The position numbers and the translations under genes were made by a program. The notes under the pieces were generated by a model, which was not told the DNA's origin, did not search any database, and saw only the letters and a program-made list of their open reading frames with translations. This document shows, piece after piece, positions 5,455 through 35,872 of a stretch of DNA of 46,780 nt (positions within the stretch are counted from its first letter, which is position 1; each line of letters opens with the position of its first letter). The stretch is from Aquificota bacterium (GTDB lineage: Bacteria > Aquificota > Aquificia > Desulfurobacteriales > DQVG01). The DNA lies in assembly GCA_027002265.1 (NCBI GenBank), contig JAMOTM010000017.1:1-46780 (forward strand). The letters are read 5' to 3'.

Positions 5455-7947
5455 GTGAGAGTTTTATATAAACATTTAAATGAATTTATTGATATTTCAG
5501 ATTTAAGTCCTCAAAAAGTAGCTGAGCTTCTTACAAAAAGTGGTACAGAAGTAGATAGAGTTTATTCTTTAGCCCAGCTTTTAGACAAAATAGTTATCGG
5601 AAAAATTTTAAAAATAGAAAAACATCCAAATGCAGATAAACTTTCTATATGTAAAGTTTTAGTTAGTGAAAATAAAAATAGCTATGCCTATAAAGCTATA
5701 AAAGAAAATCTTTCCAAATATGATTTAAAAGAAAATCAGATAGAAGATGATGGAAAGATTATTTTACAAATTGTTACTGGAGCTAAAAATGTATATGAGG
5801 GTATGTATGTTCCGGTAGTGTTAATAGGTGGTAAAGTTATATTTGATGAAGAAAGCTTTAAAATTTCCAAAAGAAAGTTTAGAGGAATAAATAGCTACGG
5901 AATGCTATGCTCAGAAAGCGAACTTGGTCTTACAGAAAGTGCCGAAGGTATTATGGATTTAAAAGAAGAAGCTCCTATAGGAGAAGATTTTATAAAGTAT
6001 GCTTCTTTAGATGATTATATTATTGAGTACGAAATTACCCCAAATCGTCCGGATACCCTAGGTGTTCTCGGAGTTGCAAGAGAGCTTAGTGCTCTTTTAA
6101 ATAGAAATTTAAAAAATATAGAAACATCTTATAACGCTGAAACTCTAGAAAACTTAGATGTTAAGGTTGATGTTTTAGACAAAAAAGCTTGTCCTCGTTA
6201 TACCTTGCAACTTGCAGAAGTAAAAAATATAAAAGAAAGTCCCCTTTGGCTAAAAGTAAGATTATATCTTTATGGTCAAAGACCAATAAATTTAATAGTA
6301 GATTTAACTAACTACGTAATGCTTGAACTTTCTCAACCTATGCATGCTTTCGATTTAGAAAAGGTGAAAAATAAACATTTTATTGTTAGAAAAGCAAAAG
6401 ATGGAGAGGAGCTTACACTTTTAGATGGAAAAACTGTAAAGCTTTCTAAGGAAGATTTAGTCATTGCAGATGAAGAAAAAGCTTTAGCCTTAGCTGGTAT
6501 TATGGGAGGAAAAGAAAGTGCAATAAATGAAAATACAAAATATATTGCATTAGAATCTGCCCATTTTGAACCTTTAACTATAAGAAGAACTTCTAAAAGA
6601 CTTGGAATTTCCACAGAAAGTTCGTATCGTTTTGAAAGAGGATGTGATATAGAAATTACAAGCTTTGCTCAAGACAGATTTTTCCATCTTTTAACTAAAT
6701 TAGATAAAGAAGCAAAAGTATATATGCCAAAGGTAGATAAATATGAAAATAAATATGTTCCAAAAGAAATAAAGCTTCCTTTAAGCAAGTTTAAAACATT
6801 TTTAGGTCAAGAAATAGAAAAGGAAGTTATTCTAAATATTTTAGAAAAACTAGGGTTTAACCCTCAAATTGAAAATGATATTCTTAAAGTAAAAGTTCCT
6901 TCTTGGAGAGCTTATGATATATATTCTTGGGCAGATATCATTGAAGAAGTATCAAGAATATATGGTTATGAAAATTTACAAATCTCTTATCCAAGTATGC
7001 ATCCAAATGTAAAAAAGGATTATACTTACTTTAGAATTTCAGATATAAAGAAGTTTTTTGCAAATAATGGATTTTTTGAAGCTATAAATTATTCTTTCTT
7101 AGGAAAAGAAAACTACAAGATTTTAGGTTTAAATTATGAAAATTTAATAAAACTTTTAAATCCACTTAGTGAAAATCAAAGTTTATTTAGAGATTTAATA
7201 ACTCCATCTTTAGTATTTAATGCTCTTTCTAACTATAAAAAAGATATAAGAAATTTAAAACTTTTTGAGCTTTCAAAAGTATTTAAGAAAAAGCCTTATG
7301 AAGAGGAAGGTGAAAATATTTTTGTAAAAGATAAAGAACTTGGGAGCATAAAGGAAGATATGCATCTTGGAGTATGTATGCTTCCAGGCGAATATAAAGA
7401 TATAAAAGGTACTTTTGATAGATTTTTTGATCTTTTAGGTTTAAAAGTAATTTATGAAAGAAGCAAAGAAAAATTTTTACATCCAGGTCAAAGTGCAGAT
7501 ATTTTTGTAAATAATGAAAAAATAGGGTTTTTAGGAAAACTTCACATAGATGTTTTAGAAAAGCTTGAAATAAATGAACCTATTTTAGTTGGAGAAATTA
7601 ATTTATCTAAAGCTTTAAAATACGCACCCAAAACTATCAAATTTGAAAGAAAAAAAGTATCAAACTTCCCAGCAACTTATAGAGATGTCTCTTTACTTTT
7701 AAGTAAAGATCAAACCTTAAAAGAAGTTTTTGATTTAGCTCAAGATATTTTTAAAGAGCTTTTAGAAGATATTTACGTTATAGATATTTTTGAAGATGAA
7801 AAGAAGCTTGGAGAAAACCTAAGAAGTATTACTATAAGAATGATAATAAGAGGAGTAGATAGAACCTTAACAGATGAAGAAGTAAATGCGCTTTATGAAA
7901 AACTTTTAAACAAAATAGAAGAAAAAGGTATAAAAGTAAGAAGATAG
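5455..7947 (+). CDS. pheT: Phenylalanyl-tRNA synthetase beta subunit (PheT)
   Basis: This is the non-catalytic partner of PheS in the (alpha-beta)2 PheRS. It contains the tRNA-binding domain, the editing B3/B4 module and the C-terminal anticodon-binding fold. Visible landmarks are KIEKHPNADKLSICKV (tRNA-bind domain), the B3/B4 region around PTHRP-like NRPDTLGVLGVARE, the QPMHAFDLEK motif, ALAGIMGG, and a C-terminal FDX-ACB domain from FPATYRDVSLL to the end. At 830 residues it is a little long because of an insertion at about residues 72-98, inside the tRNA-bind domain. The start is GTG at 5455, just after AGGAGGA at 5444-5450. pheS is not adjacent, although pheST is usually an operon. folP follows after 10 bases. 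Confidence 0.96.
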   Translation: MRVLYKHLNEFIDISDLSPQKVAELLTKSGTEVDRVYSLAQLLDKIVIGKILKIEKHPNADKLSICKVLVSENKNSYAYKAIKENLSKYDLKENQIEDDGKIILQIVTGAKNVYEGMYVPVVLIGGKVIFDEESFKISKRKFRGINSYGMLCSESELGLTESAEGIMDLKEEAPIGEDFIKYASLDDYIIEYEITPNRPDTLGVLGVARELSALLNRNLKNIETSYNAETLENLDVKVDVLDKKACPRYTLQLAEVKNIKESPLWLKVRLYLYGQRPINLIVDLTNYVMLELSQPMHAFDLEKVKNKHFIVRKAKDGEELTLLDGKTVKLSKEDLVIADEEKALALAGIMGGKESAINENTKYIALESAHFEPLTIRRTSKRLGISTESSYRFERGCDIEITSFAQDRFFHLLTKLDKEAKVYMPKVDKYENKYVPKEIKLPLSKFKTFLGQEIEKEVILNILEKLGFNPQIENDILKVKVPSWRAYDIYSWADIIEEVSRIYGYENLQISYPSMHPNVKKDYTYFRISDIKKFFANNGFFEAINYSFLGKENYKILGLNYENLIKLLNPLSENQSLFRDLITPSLVFNALSNYKKDIRNLKLFELSKVFKKKPYEEEGENIFVKDKELGSIKEDMHLGVCMLPGEYKDIKGTFDRFFDLLGLKVIYERSKEKFLHPGQSADIFVNNEKIGFLGKLHIDVLEKLEINEPILVGEINLSKALKYAPKTIKFERKKVSNFPATYRDVSLLLSKDQTLKEVFDLAQDIFKELLEDIYVIDIFEDEKKLGENLRSITIRMIIRGVDRTLTDEEVNALYEKLLNKIEEKGIKVRR

Positions 7948-22974: not shown

Positions 22975-23847
22975 ATGAATAGAAGAAGTTTTTTAAAAAA
23001 AATTTTAGTTGCTGCTGGAGCAGGTCTAGTTTTAAAACCTAATCTAAATGATTTGAAAATAAATACAGCTTTTGGAGCCATAAAAGTTCCAAAAATTCCT
23101 TGGGGATATGTGGAATTGGATCCAGATGAAGCTTTTAAAAGAGGATATTTAGGTTATTTAGTAGGGGAATGTTGTGGTGGAGCTTTCTGGGCTATAATGT
23201 CACTTTTAAAAGAGAAAGTTGGTTATCCTTATACTCTTTTACCTTTACCCACTTATGAAGAAATGTTAGAAGCACGAAAAAAAGGAATTCATTTGGAAAT
23301 GCCTATGAAATATGGTAATGGGGGAATTGTAGGTTATGGAACTATATGTGGAGCCTTAAATGGAGCTGCATCTGCTATTTATTGGGCTGTAGGTTCTTCT
23401 CATAAATATCATGATCCTGCTAAACAAATTATAAGAAGACTTTTTAGATGGTATGAAGAGACTGCTTTCCCAACTCCATTATCAAATGAATATGCTCAAA
23501 AAGGACTCTTTCCGGTAAAAGGAAAAACAGATAAAGTTTTGCCAAGCGTAAAAACAAATTCGGTTCTATGTCATGTTACAGTATCTAAATGGTGTTATGA
23601 AACAGGCTATGCAAGTGGTTCAAAAGAAAGAGCTGAAAGATGTGCTCGAATTACAGCAGATACAGCCCGTCAAGCGGTAATTTTGCTTAATGCTTATTTT
23701 AAAGGAGAATTAGAAAAATATCCATTTAAATTATCTAAGTTAACCGCACAATGTAGAAGTTGCCACTACAAAGGTAAAAACTATTCTCGCGGAGAATTTG
23801 CAAGAGGTTTTATACAATGCGAAACCTGTCACGTAAATTTAAAGTAA
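22975..23847 (+). CDS. Tat-exported split-Soret-type cytochrome c
   Basis: A 290-residue protein of the C_GCAxxG_C_C family, like the split-Soret diheme cytochrome c known from Desulfovibrio. The N-terminus NRRSFLKKILVAAGAGLVL is a twin-arginine signal, so the folded protein goes to the periplasm. The family Cys motifs appear as GECCGGAFWAI and GYGTICGALNGAA. Two C-terminal heme c sites, CRSCH and CETCH, bind two hemes. It is a single gene divergent from sdhA, with its own terminator, suggesting a periplasmic electron-transfer role. The physiological partner of split-Soret cytochromes is not settled. Heme attachment needs a cytochrome c biogenesis system; a ResB-like gene lies at the right edge. 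Confidence 0.88.
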   Translation: MNRRSFLKKILVAAGAGLVLKPNLNDLKINTAFGAIKVPKIPWGYVELDPDEAFKRGYLGYLVGECCGGAFWAIMSLLKEKVGYPYTLLPLPTYEEMLEARKKGIHLEMPMKYGNGGIVGYGTICGALNGAASAIYWAVGSSHKYHDPAKQIIRRLFRWYEETAFPTPLSNEYAQKGLFPVKGKTDKVLPSVKTNSVLCHVTVSKWCYETGYASGSKERAERCARITADTARQAVILLNAYFKGELEKYPFKLSKLTAQCRSCHYKGKNYSRGEFARGFIQCETCHVNLK

Positions 23848-30359: not shown

Positions 30360-31121
30360 TTATACAAGATCACTATCATCTGGGAAAGATAAATCATCTT
30401 CATCAAAAGATGAGGTATCTAAATCCTGACTAAATTCATCATAGCTTACATCTTGAGAATCTATACCAAAACCGGCAGCATCAACATCTAAGTCGCTAGT
30501 GTCTTCATTAGATTCATTTTCTAAATGAGGTTCTTCATTTGAATGCTCAGAAGTTTCGGTTTGAGAAGGAACACTTTCTATATGTGGAGCAGCGTGAGCT
30601 CCAGAAAATAAATCATCTAATAAGGAACCGGCAAGCATTCCAGTTCCAAAACCAAGCAGAGGTCCAAGCCAAGAAAAAGTAGGAGTTGGAACTTGAGGCA
30701 TTCCATTTAAAGATGGAGAAACTTTGGAGCCAGATTGAGAGGATACTGGCATAAATAATTTTTTCAAATCCTCTTTTCTAACGGTTGTATCAATTACTTC
30801 AAATTTAGAAGCTATTTTTATTCTATAAACATCCTCTGAAAGTTTTTCATAATTAAAAGAAACAATCTCAGATTTTTTTATAAAAATGTTCTTTTTATCT
30901 GAGATATAAGCCACACCTTCTTCAGAAAATATAAGTTTTCCTCCATCTAAGGTTTCAATAATAATTTGATTTGGAGAATTTGGAGAATTTTGTGAGGATA
31001 CGGATGTAGATCTAAAGTTTCTACTTTGGGATAAAGAAGGCTTTGAAGAAAATTTATTAAACGCCATAGAAATTAAAAATCCCAAAATAGCTATTCCTAC
31101 AATAATTAAAATTAACTCCAT
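30360..31121 (-). CDS. Unknown protein: one membrane helix, small folded domain, acidic tail
   Basis: I do not recognise this 253-residue protein. A single N-terminal membrane helix (LILIIVGIAILGFLISMAF) is followed by a Ser/Asn-rich linker. A compact, probably beta-rich segment comes next (about 50-120, from IIIETLDGGKLIFSEEGVAYI to EDLKKLFMPV), then a Pro/Gly-rich part with WLGPLLGFGTGMLAGSLLDDLFSG. The last 70 residues are dominated by Asp, Glu and Ser and are likely disordered. The frame could start at TTG 31133, but ATG 31121 follows GGAGGAATTT directly. It begins 12 bases after the rpsP stop and shares its terminator, so it is co-expressed with a ribosomal protein. Confidence 0.7.
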   Translation of the reverse strand: MELILIIVGIAILGFLISMAFNKFSSKPSLSQSRNFRSTSVSSQNSPNSPNQIIIETLDGGKLIFSEEGVAYISDKKNIFIKKSEIVSFNYEKLSEDVYRIKIASKFEVIDTTVRKEDLKKLFMPVSSQSGSKVSPSLNGMPQVPTPTFSWLGPLLGFGTGMLAGSLLDDLFSGAHAAPHIESVPSQTETSEHSNEEPHLENESNEDTSDLDVDAAGFGIDSQDVSYDEFSQDLDTSSFDEDDLSFPDDSDLV

Positions 31122-31133
31122 AAATTCCTCCAA

Positions 31134-31550: not shown

Positions 31551-31581
31551 ATAAAAGAAAAAGGGGGGCACTTCCCCCTTT
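31551..31581 (-). terminator. Terminator of the small Trp-rich protein operon
   Basis: AAAGGGGG (31560-31567) pairs with CCCCCTTT (31574-31581) across the loop GCACTT. Read leftward it follows the stop codon of the 87-residue gene by two bases, and a T-rich tract (TTTCTTTTAT, complement of 31551-31560) comes next. Confidence 0.8.
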
Positions 31582-31583
31582 AA

Positions 31584-31847
31584 TTATTTATTTTGATAAT
31601 GCTCTTGCCAATATTTTTGCCAGTAATACCAACCTGGTGGTACCCAAGTAGGTGAGGTTGTGTTATAATTTAAAGTAGGTGGTTGAGAAGGAGGATTATA
31701 ATATCTCCAGCACCAACCTGGGCCACCATATTGCCAACACCAACCTGGACGAGCTCCATATAACCATCCTGGCCCAGGTCCCCATGGAGACGCAAAAGCA
31801 AAGCCAAGTAATAATCCACCTCCAATTAAAAGTTTTTTTAGAGACAT
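31584..31847 (-). CDS. Small secreted Trp/Gly/Pro/Tyr-rich protein
   Basis: An 87-residue protein of unknown function. The first 19-20 residues (KKLLIGGGLLLGFAFA) form a classical signal peptide with an AFA-S cleavage site, so the mature form of about 68 residues should be extracytoplasmic. The mature part has ten tryptophans, many Gly, Pro and Tyr, and a duplicated PGWCW(Q/R)Y motif whose Cys residues are the only ones in the mature protein. It starts PWGPGPGW, matching the N-terminus of the next upstream product. It follows that gene by 4 bases and ends at a terminator. A structural or ligand-binding envelope role is conceivable; nothing in the sequence decides it. Confidence 0.75.
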   Translation of the reverse strand: MSLKKLLIGGGLLLGFAFASPWGPGPGWLYGARPGWCWQYGGPGWCWRYYNPPSQPPTLNYNTTSPTWVPPGWYYWQKYWQEHYQNK

Positions 31848-31851
31848 TTTT

Positions 31852-32076
31852 CTACCCTCCCTTAGAATTTTTTATTAAATTTTTAAGTTCCCCAATTTCC
31901 TTTTTTAATTCATTTATTTCTTTATCTCTGCCTGAAAATGAAGATTTAGAAAAAATTCTAAAAACGATGTAAATAATAATTCCTAAAATTAGTAAATTAA
32001 ATACAACATGGAAGATAGCAAATAATCCCCAGCCCCAACTTGGAAATATCCAACAGGGTCCCATTCCCCATGGCAT
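31852..32076 (-). CDS. Small Trp-rich single-pass membrane protein
   Basis: A 74-residue protein of unknown function. It starts MPWGMGPCWIFPSWGWG (four Trp, one Cys), continues with one long membrane helix (about residues 18-42, ending YIVFRIFS), and finishes with a charged heptad-like helix, KEINELKKEIGELKNLIKN. Many small Gly/Trp-start membrane proteins of anaerobes have this outline, often with a SHOCT tail; that tail is not present here. The ATG is preceded by GAGGT. It is first in a two-gene operon with a strong promoter and overlapping dyads, so expression is probably switched. Confidence 0.75.
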   Translation of the reverse strand: MPWGMGPCWIFPSWGWGLFAIFHVVFNLLILGIIIYIVFRIFSKSSFSGRDKEINELKKEIGELKNLIKNSKGG

Positions 32077-32086
32077 ATTTTACCTC

Positions 32087-32117
32087 ACATATGAATATTA
32101 TTCTTTACATATGTAAA
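32087..32117. promoter_or_regulatory. Overlapping operator-like dyads upstream of the Trp-rich operon
   Basis: TTTACATATGTAAA at 32104-32117 is a perfect 14-bp palindrome that runs from inside the -10 across the predicted transcript start. Together with a second CATATG at 32087-32092 it also forms a wider imperfect inverted repeat (CATATGAATA, 6-base centre, TTTACATATG, 8 of 10 matching). Size and position fit a dimeric repressor such as an ArsR/SmtB-type winged-helix protein, but the regulator is not in the window. Confidence 0.6.
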
Positions 32118-32144
32118 TATATATTTAATTTTTTAATTTGTCAA
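32116..32144 (-). promoter_or_regulatory. Sigma70-type promoter of the Trp-rich small-protein operon
   Basis: On the minus strand TTGACA (32144 down to 32139) and TATATT (32121 down to 32116) are separated by exactly 17 bases. This is the best-matching promoter I found in the window. Transcription should start near 32109, giving a leader of about 33 bases to the ATG at 32076. Confidence 0.7.
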
Positions 32145-34128: not shown

Positions 34129-35872
34129 TTATTTTACGTTTTTTAATATGCTTTTTACTTTTCTTATAGAAATACTTTTACTTTCATAATTTGTATAAAT
34201 GTCTACATCCTCGTCATTATATAATATTTTTGGGCTAATAAATATCATTAAATTAGTATCTTCATATGTTTTTATTTCCTTTTTAAAAAGATTTCCTAGC
34301 AGAGGGATATCTGAAAGAATAGGAACTTTATTTTCTTGTTTCAAAACTTTTCTACTTTTTATTCCACCTATTACAATTGTTTGGCCGCTTTTTACTAAAA
34401 TTTCTGTATCTATACTTTTTTTTGCAGTTATAGGCAAAGTTTGAGAAGAAGCATAACCCGTTACATCCGATACGTCTTGTTTAATTTTTAATAAAACATA
34501 ATTTTTATTTTTTACATAAGGAATAATTTCAAGTTTTAAACCAACATCTTTATATTCGTAAGTTATTATAGGATTTCCATTTGAATCATATTTTTGACCT
34601 GTCTGAAAGGGAATTACTTTTGAGACTTCAATAGTAGCCTTATCCCCACTTAAAGTTAAAATATTAGGACTAGACAAAATTGTAGCTAGCCCTTGGCTTT
34701 TGTATGCATTTAAAAGGGCTTTTAAAACATTACTATTTATATCTAAAATACCTATGTTTATTCCAGGAGCCGGGGTTATAGCTAAACTGTCCGAACTTGG
34801 AAAAATTAAACCAAATGCAAGCTTATTATCTTTATTTAACGAAGTATCAAAAGAAGCCTGTAAAGAAAAAATTTTTTTCCTTATTTAAAGAAAGCTCAAC
34901 TATTTGAGTTTCGATTGCCACAAGAGGTTTTCGATTATCAATAGAATTTACTATATTTTTTATCTCATTATATTTCTCAGAAGGTGCATATATAATTAGA
35001 TAGTTTTCAGAAGGTAAAGAAGTAATAATAATATCTCTATCTTTTAGAAAAAGTTTTTTTAATACCTTTTCAATATTTTCCACCTTGGCATATTTTAGTT
35101 TTATTATATGGAAATCTGAAATATCATTTTTATTTGTTTGATTAAATACTTTTATATTTAAATTTTTTAAAATTTCAAAAAATCTTTCACCATATTTTTT
35201 TGGAGCAAATAAAATTACTAAACGGTTTTTTTTATCATAACCTAAAAAATAATTCCTTTCTCCAAATATGGAGAAATATTTGTTAGCTAAATTTCTTAAA
35301 ATGATTTCGTTAATATCTTTAATTTTCAAAATGTAAAGTTTATATTTTTCTAACAAATTTTTCTTTTGATAAAACTTTTTGTACATTTGTAAAAAAAACT
35401 TTTTTTTATTGTCTTCTACATATAAAATTACCGTATTAAAAATAAGTTTTACATTTTCCCCAGGTACCAGAAAATTTCTTGCAACTTGATAGAAGCTATT
35501 TGCCAAATTTCTATTTTCAAAATTTAAAATCAAAATTGAGTATTTAGGATAAATCCTCACATTTCTTTTATATGTAATTAAATAAGTTTTTTTCCCAATT
35601 TTTTTTAAAGCTAGATTCCTTTCTTTTAATATGTTAACAAAAATTAAAAAAAGTTCATCTTTACTTAAGGGGGAGTTACTTACAAATGTAATTTTTCCTC
35701 TTAAATTTTCCGGAATATTTACATTTATCTTTAAGGTTTTAGATACAGTATATATAAAATCCTTTAAAGGAACATCTTTTAAATTTAAATATATAGGTTG
35801 AGTTTTTGCTAAAGATATTTGAAAAAATAAAAAAAGAATAAAGAAAAAGCTTAAAAATTTTTGATTTTTCAT
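34129..35872 (-). pseudogene. Secretin (GspD/PilQ superfamily) interrupted by one frameshift
   Basis: The 5-prime part (35872 to 34847) encodes a signal peptide (FFFILFLFFQISLA) and N-domains: the STN/N0-like YLNLKDVPLKDFIYTVSKTL and two ring-building repeats, including FHIIKLKYAKVENIEKVLKKLF. It reads into the secretin domain at VAIETQIVELSLNKEK and then hits a stop. Skipping one base in the A7T6 run at 34866-34878 restores a continuous frame through SLQASFD and ITPAPGINIGILDIN to SSPNILTLSGDKATIEV. It then runs through VPILSDIPLLGNLFKK and TNLMIFISPKIL to the stop at 34129. Repaired, the protein has about 580 residues. It may be a pseudogene, a sequencing error in a homopolymer, or corrected by slippage. 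No other type II secretion or type IV pilus gene is nearby. Confidence 0.85.

Follow-up and report, generated by a model that had tools for sequence, protein, structure and literature searches.

Among the described regulators closest to the system considered here are the ArsR/SmtB repressors with 12-2-12 operators, such as ZiaR and AzuR. These combine a winged helix of the HTH_5 type with a 26-bp inverted repeat placed next to or over the transcription start site, and for both zia and AzuR/nmtA a divergent repressor gene with an unlinked second target has been described (PMC8790569). The same winged helix, the same placement of the repeat, and a divergent repressor gene at the main site with an unlinked second target recur in the genome studied here. 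In contrast to ZiaR and AzuR, the regulator has no canonical metal site, the half-site is CATATGTAA, and the regulator is encoded together with a single-pass membrane protein. The putative target genes encode neither metallothionein nor efflux pumps but DUF2202 and Trp-rich proteins that are exported.

A second comparison is with SdpR of Bacillus subtilis, a small ArsR-type autorepressor that shares an operon with the membrane protein SdpI, by which it is sequestered at the membrane (PMC1626106). An operon of that kind is found on contig C43 of the genome studied here, and the same neighbourhood occurs in Bacillota and Streptomyces. However, SdpI is polytopic while the C43 partner has one predicted helix, the C43 regulator reaches 34.4 bits against the SdpR model NF033789 (cut-off 100), and no SdpC-like toxin was seen here. 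In the PspB/PspC envelope-stress system, the membrane sensor is a short protein that spans the membrane once, carries a coiled coil in the cytoplasm and communicates with a negative regulator there. That regulator is PspA, whereas here it is an ArsR protein; small partner proteins from Bacillota give weak matches, below the cut-off, and the 74-aa protein described below gives no match to the PspB model.

A further comparison is with DUF2202 proteins (solved: MJ0754) and DUF4405 cytochromes b. Members of the DUF4405 family are haem b-binding proteins with kinship to the cytochromes of ferrosomes (PMC11334425). DUF4405 cytochromes have also been associated with iron storage and with extracytosolic electron transfer. 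The literature searched contained no mention of DUF2202, COG4902 or MJ0754. The main target locus on C43 encodes both domains, whereas the 87-aa protein described below has only the leader and the Trp/Gly-rich arm.

Against this background, we consider that an ArsR autorepressor without canonical metal sites, which may be relieved through a membrane partner, probably controls a DUF2202/cytochrome system and, in trans, a small operon in the 46,780-nucleotide stretch of DNA analysed here (the window). The system is a variant of known ArsR regulation, of which the membrane-partner mode would be the novel part.

A two-gene operon with a rare operator dyad

The operon lies on the minus strand of the window, in a heat-loving Aquificota bacterium. 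An earlier note, made from the sequence, had described two tiny ORFs separated by 4 bases, driven by a TTGACA-N17-TATATT promoter and closed by a hairpin, and each of these elements is borne out. The first gene (31852..32076) encodes a 74-aa protein and the second (31584..31847) an 87-aa protein, and ribosome-binding sites are present. The promoter (32144..32116), with its -35 hexamer TTGACA at 32139..32144 and its -10 hexamer TATATT at 32116..32121, matches the consensus at 11 of 12 positions and is the top match of the region. Downstream, at 31560..31581, a strong intrinsic-terminator-like hairpin (AAAGGGGGAAGTGCCCCCCTTT) with a T-rich tail was found on the same strand; hairpins of this type are enriched in the region, with 10 found and 1.6 expected from shuffles. 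An Rfam search of the window gave no match.

The earlier note had also taken a perfect 14-bp palindrome over the promoter as the operator. The palindrome TTTACATATGTAAA is present at 32104..32117, but taken alone it proves nothing, since the AT-rich window contains 13 perfect 14-bp palindromes, close to the number given by chance (about 12 expected under a first-order Markov model). It is the promoter-proximal half of a 26-bp dyad, CATATG-N14-CATATG (32088..32113), and this dyad is the significant unit. Its two CATATG boxes are placed 20 bp apart, it begins 2 nt past the -10 box, and it spans the expected transcription start. In a pattern count over the whole genome (1,391,994 bases in 81 contigs), the exact dyad has two copies, one in the window and one at G000:C43:90263-90288. 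Two others, each with a single mismatch, lie inside coding genes, and none of 20 simulated genomes contains an exact copy.

At C43 the promoter is again TTGACA-N17-TATATT, with its -35 hexamer in the same CTTGACAA context, and the dyad starts 1 nt behind it. Both dyads are symmetric at 9 of 13 pairs. Promoter and operator are the same at the two sites, and no other exact copy of the dyad exists in the genome. Both sites accordingly carry what is typical of ArsR/SmtB targets, an inverted repeat of about 26 bp overlapping the promoter and start site, here 1-2 nt past the -10 box. On these sequence comparisons, the window operon is most likely regulated and part of a small ArsR regulon. The earlier description of a regulated operon of small envelope proteins is upheld by this paralogous promoter and operator and by a third in a sister species; the operon is, however, most likely not self-contained but a second target of an ArsR repressor whose gene lies elsewhere in the genome.

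The C43 locus and the origin of the window operon

The C43 dyad (locus L038) sits between two divergent units. To its right is the gene for a 246-aa exported DUF2202 protein (L038:8305-9045; Pfam 142 bits), and to its left a three-gene operon encoding a 79-aa small membrane protein, a 99-aa ArsR-family regulator and a DUF4405 membrane protein (cytochrome b). The ORFs for the small membrane protein (L038 7914-8153) and the regulator (7615-7914) overlap, with the ArsR start codon within the overlap. The regulator matches PF01022 (HTH_5 winged helix) at 40.8 bits, above the cut-off of 22. Its best NCBIfam model is the ArsR/SmtB metalloregulator subfamily, at 41.4 of 55 bits and thus below the cut-off. 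The canonical metal sites (ELCVCDLC in alpha-3 and D-H-H-E in alpha-5) are absent from its sequence; Cys occurs only at positions 7, 10 and 61, the first two forming an N-terminal CKIC pair, and the sole His is at 49.

DUF2202 has a solved relative (MJ0754), a weak match to MiaE and a conserved E-ExxH-E-H pattern, and from the latter two a ferritin-like fold is inferred. In the C43 DUF2202 protein the ExxH motif reads NEEIYMD, where relatives have SEQRHMD, so that a presumed metal ligand is Tyr; the DUF2202 protein of the sister species keeps the His.

The earlier note had called both window proteins unknown. Profile searches against Pfam, NCBIfam, PHROGs and PDB indeed gave nothing significant for either, but relatives of both were found at C43. 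The 74-aa protein is predicted to span the membrane once, between a short N-terminus rich in Trp (MPWGMGPCWIFPSWGWG) and a charged C-terminal helix. AlphaFold, run on the single sequence, gives a confident helix at residues 13-45 (pLDDT about 95 for residues 21-40) and a second helix at 48-71. It is 39% identical to the C43 small membrane protein (E 2.5e-9), the two share the start MPxGMGP, and none of 1000 codon shuffles matched the protein score. By sequence, then, the two are shown to be paralogues, the C43 copy being encoded immediately ahead of the ArsR gene. Weaker hits to the 74-aa protein among relatives (E above 0.004) were put down to chance similarity between helices, and one in the sister species (L014) was rejected, as it sits after ATP synthase genes without a dyad.

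The 87-aa protein is exported, with a predicted signal peptide ending AFA|S, and is rich in Trp, Gly and Pro; the ten Trp counted earlier are there, and it contains CWQYGGPGWCW. A phmmer search of a small ORF set (E 5e-4) matched it to the C43 DUF2202 protein, whose signal peptide and Trp/Gly-rich N-terminus it resembles; 28 of 32 bases are identical in the part encoding the mature protein, and none of 1000 codon shuffles matched the DNA or protein score for this region, though the likeness is a short, low-complexity stretch. No DUF2202 domain was detected in it with Pfam, and AlphaFold predicts it as disordered (pLDDT 53), too poor for a fold search. It is possible, and we put it forward with considerable reserve, that the 87-aa protein is a free-standing, exported counterpart of the DUF2202 arm and takes part in the same redox or metal handling at the envelope. 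In AT-rich DNA, short ORFs need not be genes; here, both are supported as such by their paralogy or likeness to the C43 proteins.

Given these correspondences, the window operon appears to have arisen from parts of the C43 locus that were copied, rearranged and retained under the same control. That it is instead a decayed or incidental partial duplicate, its promoter and operator, membrane protein and DUF2202 leader kept by chance with no separate role, we regard as improbable. All three elements do have a C43 counterpart, and the operon was found neither in the 60 nearest genomes nor in the sister species (64% complete), where glmS is followed by panC. However, both frames are intact and the proteins have diverged, as the identity of the 74-aa pair indicates, while promoter, dyad and spacing are nearly identical, and the window operon has its own terminator and ribosome-binding sites.

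Relatives of the dyad and of the regulator

The sister species (G001) is the only congeneric genome. It has one copy of a dyad with the same core (CATATGTATACTAATGTATACATATG, on G001:C3), symmetric at 11 of 13 pairs and lying behind TTGACA-N17-TACACT in the same -35 context and with the same 17-nt spacer. The ORF downstream of it is exported, Trp-rich and cut by the contig end. The DUF2202 gene of this species, truncated where a different contig ends, opens with the same Trp-rich stretch, and 55 bp are identical between the two contig ends. Most likely these are one gene split at a repeat, in which case the dyad would control DUF2202 there too. The core of the dyad is thus kept in a related genome, while the exact flanked form (28 bp) has no copy in the other 135 of the phylum's 136 genomes. 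No ArsR gene was found in the sister species, at the completeness given above.

DUF2202 and DUF4405 genes adjoin in 13 Desulfurobacteriaceae loci, several of which lie behind genes for response-regulator-like and membrane proteins, not ArsR. A phylum-wide ArsR search returned only generic matches of 23-25 bits. A scan for DUF4405 relatives recovered DUF2202-DUF4405 pairs but, among the matches listed, no ArsR-like protein nearby; for this reason the ArsR wiring looks special to this genus. A Thermococcus MAG (L161:4579-7888) presents an archaeal version of the neighbourhood, in which genes for DUF2202, DUF4405, another DUF2202 and a small membrane coiled-coil protein follow one another, although the match to its small membrane protein (E 5e-5) is a lead only, coiled coils matching easily. 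In Thermodesulfobacterium hydrogeniphilum (L122:4159-4773), a DUF4405 protein 48% identical to the one studied here has no DUF2202 neighbour, and horizontal transfer is possible.

Outside the phylum, a tblastn search of plasmids found regulators 34-38% identical to the C43 ArsR protein in Exiguobacterium, Paenisporosarcina, Peribacillus and Niallia. More distant relatives occur in Streptomyces, and one, akin to the Bacillota members, lies on an IMG/VR viral contig. The recognition-helix region, SRP(L/M)(L/V)Y(L/A)HLKKLEE, is kept between the C43 protein and the Bacillota members. Both Exiguobacterium plasmids carry an exact dyad (CATATGTAATAAAATAATTACATATG) whose second box contains the regulator's own start codon. 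The viral contig has a dyad with one mismatch and Niallia a similar one, while Paenisporosarcina and Peribacillus keep one half. As recognition helix and rare dyad are shared with these relatives, the assignment of the regulator to the operator is strong, and binding of the C43 ArsR protein to the operator dyads is, to judge from the sequences, very likely.

It appears highly improbable, given the above, that the window operon is a self-contained unit answering to another factor unconnected with the C43 regulator. The window itself contains no ArsR gene, and the genome encodes a second ArsR protein, one of only two above the Pfam cut-off, that might be called upon instead. That protein is of another type, however, with an ELCVKDLC motif and a thioredoxin gene adjoining, whereas the dyad is otherwise found only at the C43 ArsR locus and recurs, in relatives of the C43 regulator, at the start codon of the regulator gene.

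All of these relatives encode, directly downstream of the ArsR gene, a protein of 73-89 aa in which a single hydrophobic helix is combined with a charged coiled coil that ends in EKLLKEVE or a similar sequence; at C43 the partner is encoded directly upstream, overlapping the ArsR gene. In both Exiguobacterium plasmids this ORF, which is unannotated, overlaps the end of the ArsR gene (L214:2763-3002 and L221:2272-2511). A profile comparison with hhalign between the small membrane proteins of the genus studied here and those of Bacillota gave a probability of 13%, so that homology is not shown and the two groups are alike in architecture only.

A proposed membrane-linked switch

In the model we favour, a dimer of the C43 ArsR protein would, in the absence of a signal, occupy the 26-bp dyad behind the -10 box and block both the window operon and the C43 DUF2202 gene. 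It would probably also control its own operon, comprising the small membrane protein, ArsR and DUF4405, because the C43 dyad lies in the divergent intergenic region. A signal at the membrane, passed on by the small membrane partner, would titrate ArsR off the DNA, much as SdpI acts on SdpR. The 74-aa protein of the window would be a second copy of this partner, and the 87-aa protein a secreted Trp-rich arm in a DUF2202/DUF4405 system of the envelope, for which redox or iron handling is the natural reading of the encoded outputs. That this arm may bind the same partner is the weakest step.

A membrane signal is the likely switch because the regulator and its relatives lack canonical metal sites, and the relatives in Bacillota and Streptomyces are encoded beside a small single-pass membrane protein whose coiled coil is cytoplasmic. 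By analogy with SdpI, relief of repression through the membrane partner is a serious candidate, for which we judge the chances to fall just short of even. The earlier note had suggested a response to metal, redox or envelope stress; the sequence of the regulator, without canonical metal sites, does not support the first two, and envelope stress is a possible signal.

A classical metal- or thiol-responsive regulon is nonetheless the main competitor, if an unlikely one. Under this scenario, Cys7, Cys10 and Cys61 would bind metal or become oxidized, and the Trp-rich, Cys-containing exported proteins would bind metal or join an iron or redox system with DUF2202 and DUF4405. The CKIC pair together with Cys61 could form a lineage-specific metal or thiol site, the best NCBIfam model is a metalloregulator subfamily albeit below its cut-off, and the CWQYGGPGWCW stretch, the haem b binding and ferrosome relation of DUF4405 (PMC11334425) and the solved DUF2202 relative MJ0754 would all suit such a role. 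However, neither the alpha-3 nor the alpha-5 motif is present, none of the eight relatives with the shared recognition helix has the three Cys, and the protein that constantly accompanies those relatives is a membrane protein rather than a metal exporter.

Extending the membrane-partner model beyond this genome, we tentatively suggest that a branch of the ArsR fold spanning Bacillota, Streptomyces and Aquificota may sense the envelope through a single-pass coiled-coil partner instead of metal. In this genus it would have been wired to an exported DUF2202 protein and a cytochrome b, with the window operon adding a second partner and a Trp-rich arm. If so, there would be a compact route from a metal-sensor fold to an envelope sensor. 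A regulator, an operator and a regulon would also be named for genes that previously had none, and two uncharacterized families, DUF2202 and the small membrane protein, would be linked with DUF4405 cytochromes. As the site is an exact CATATG-N14-CATATG, the prediction is directly testable with one purified protein.

Other genes of the window deserve brief mention. A gene at 22975-23847 (+) encodes an exported redox-type protein of the C_GCAxxG_C_C family (PF09719) with C-terminal CxxCH motifs, and it adjoins succinate dehydrogenase/fumarate reductase-like genes. Directly after rpsP, at 30360-31133 (-), is the gene for a 257-aa membrane-anchored acidic protein that matched no Pfam family. A secretin of the GspD/PilQ type is split on the minus strand over ORFs at 34132-34677 (C-terminal part) and 34850-35872 (N-terminal part), and a break or frameshift in the gene seems to lie between 34677 and 34850.
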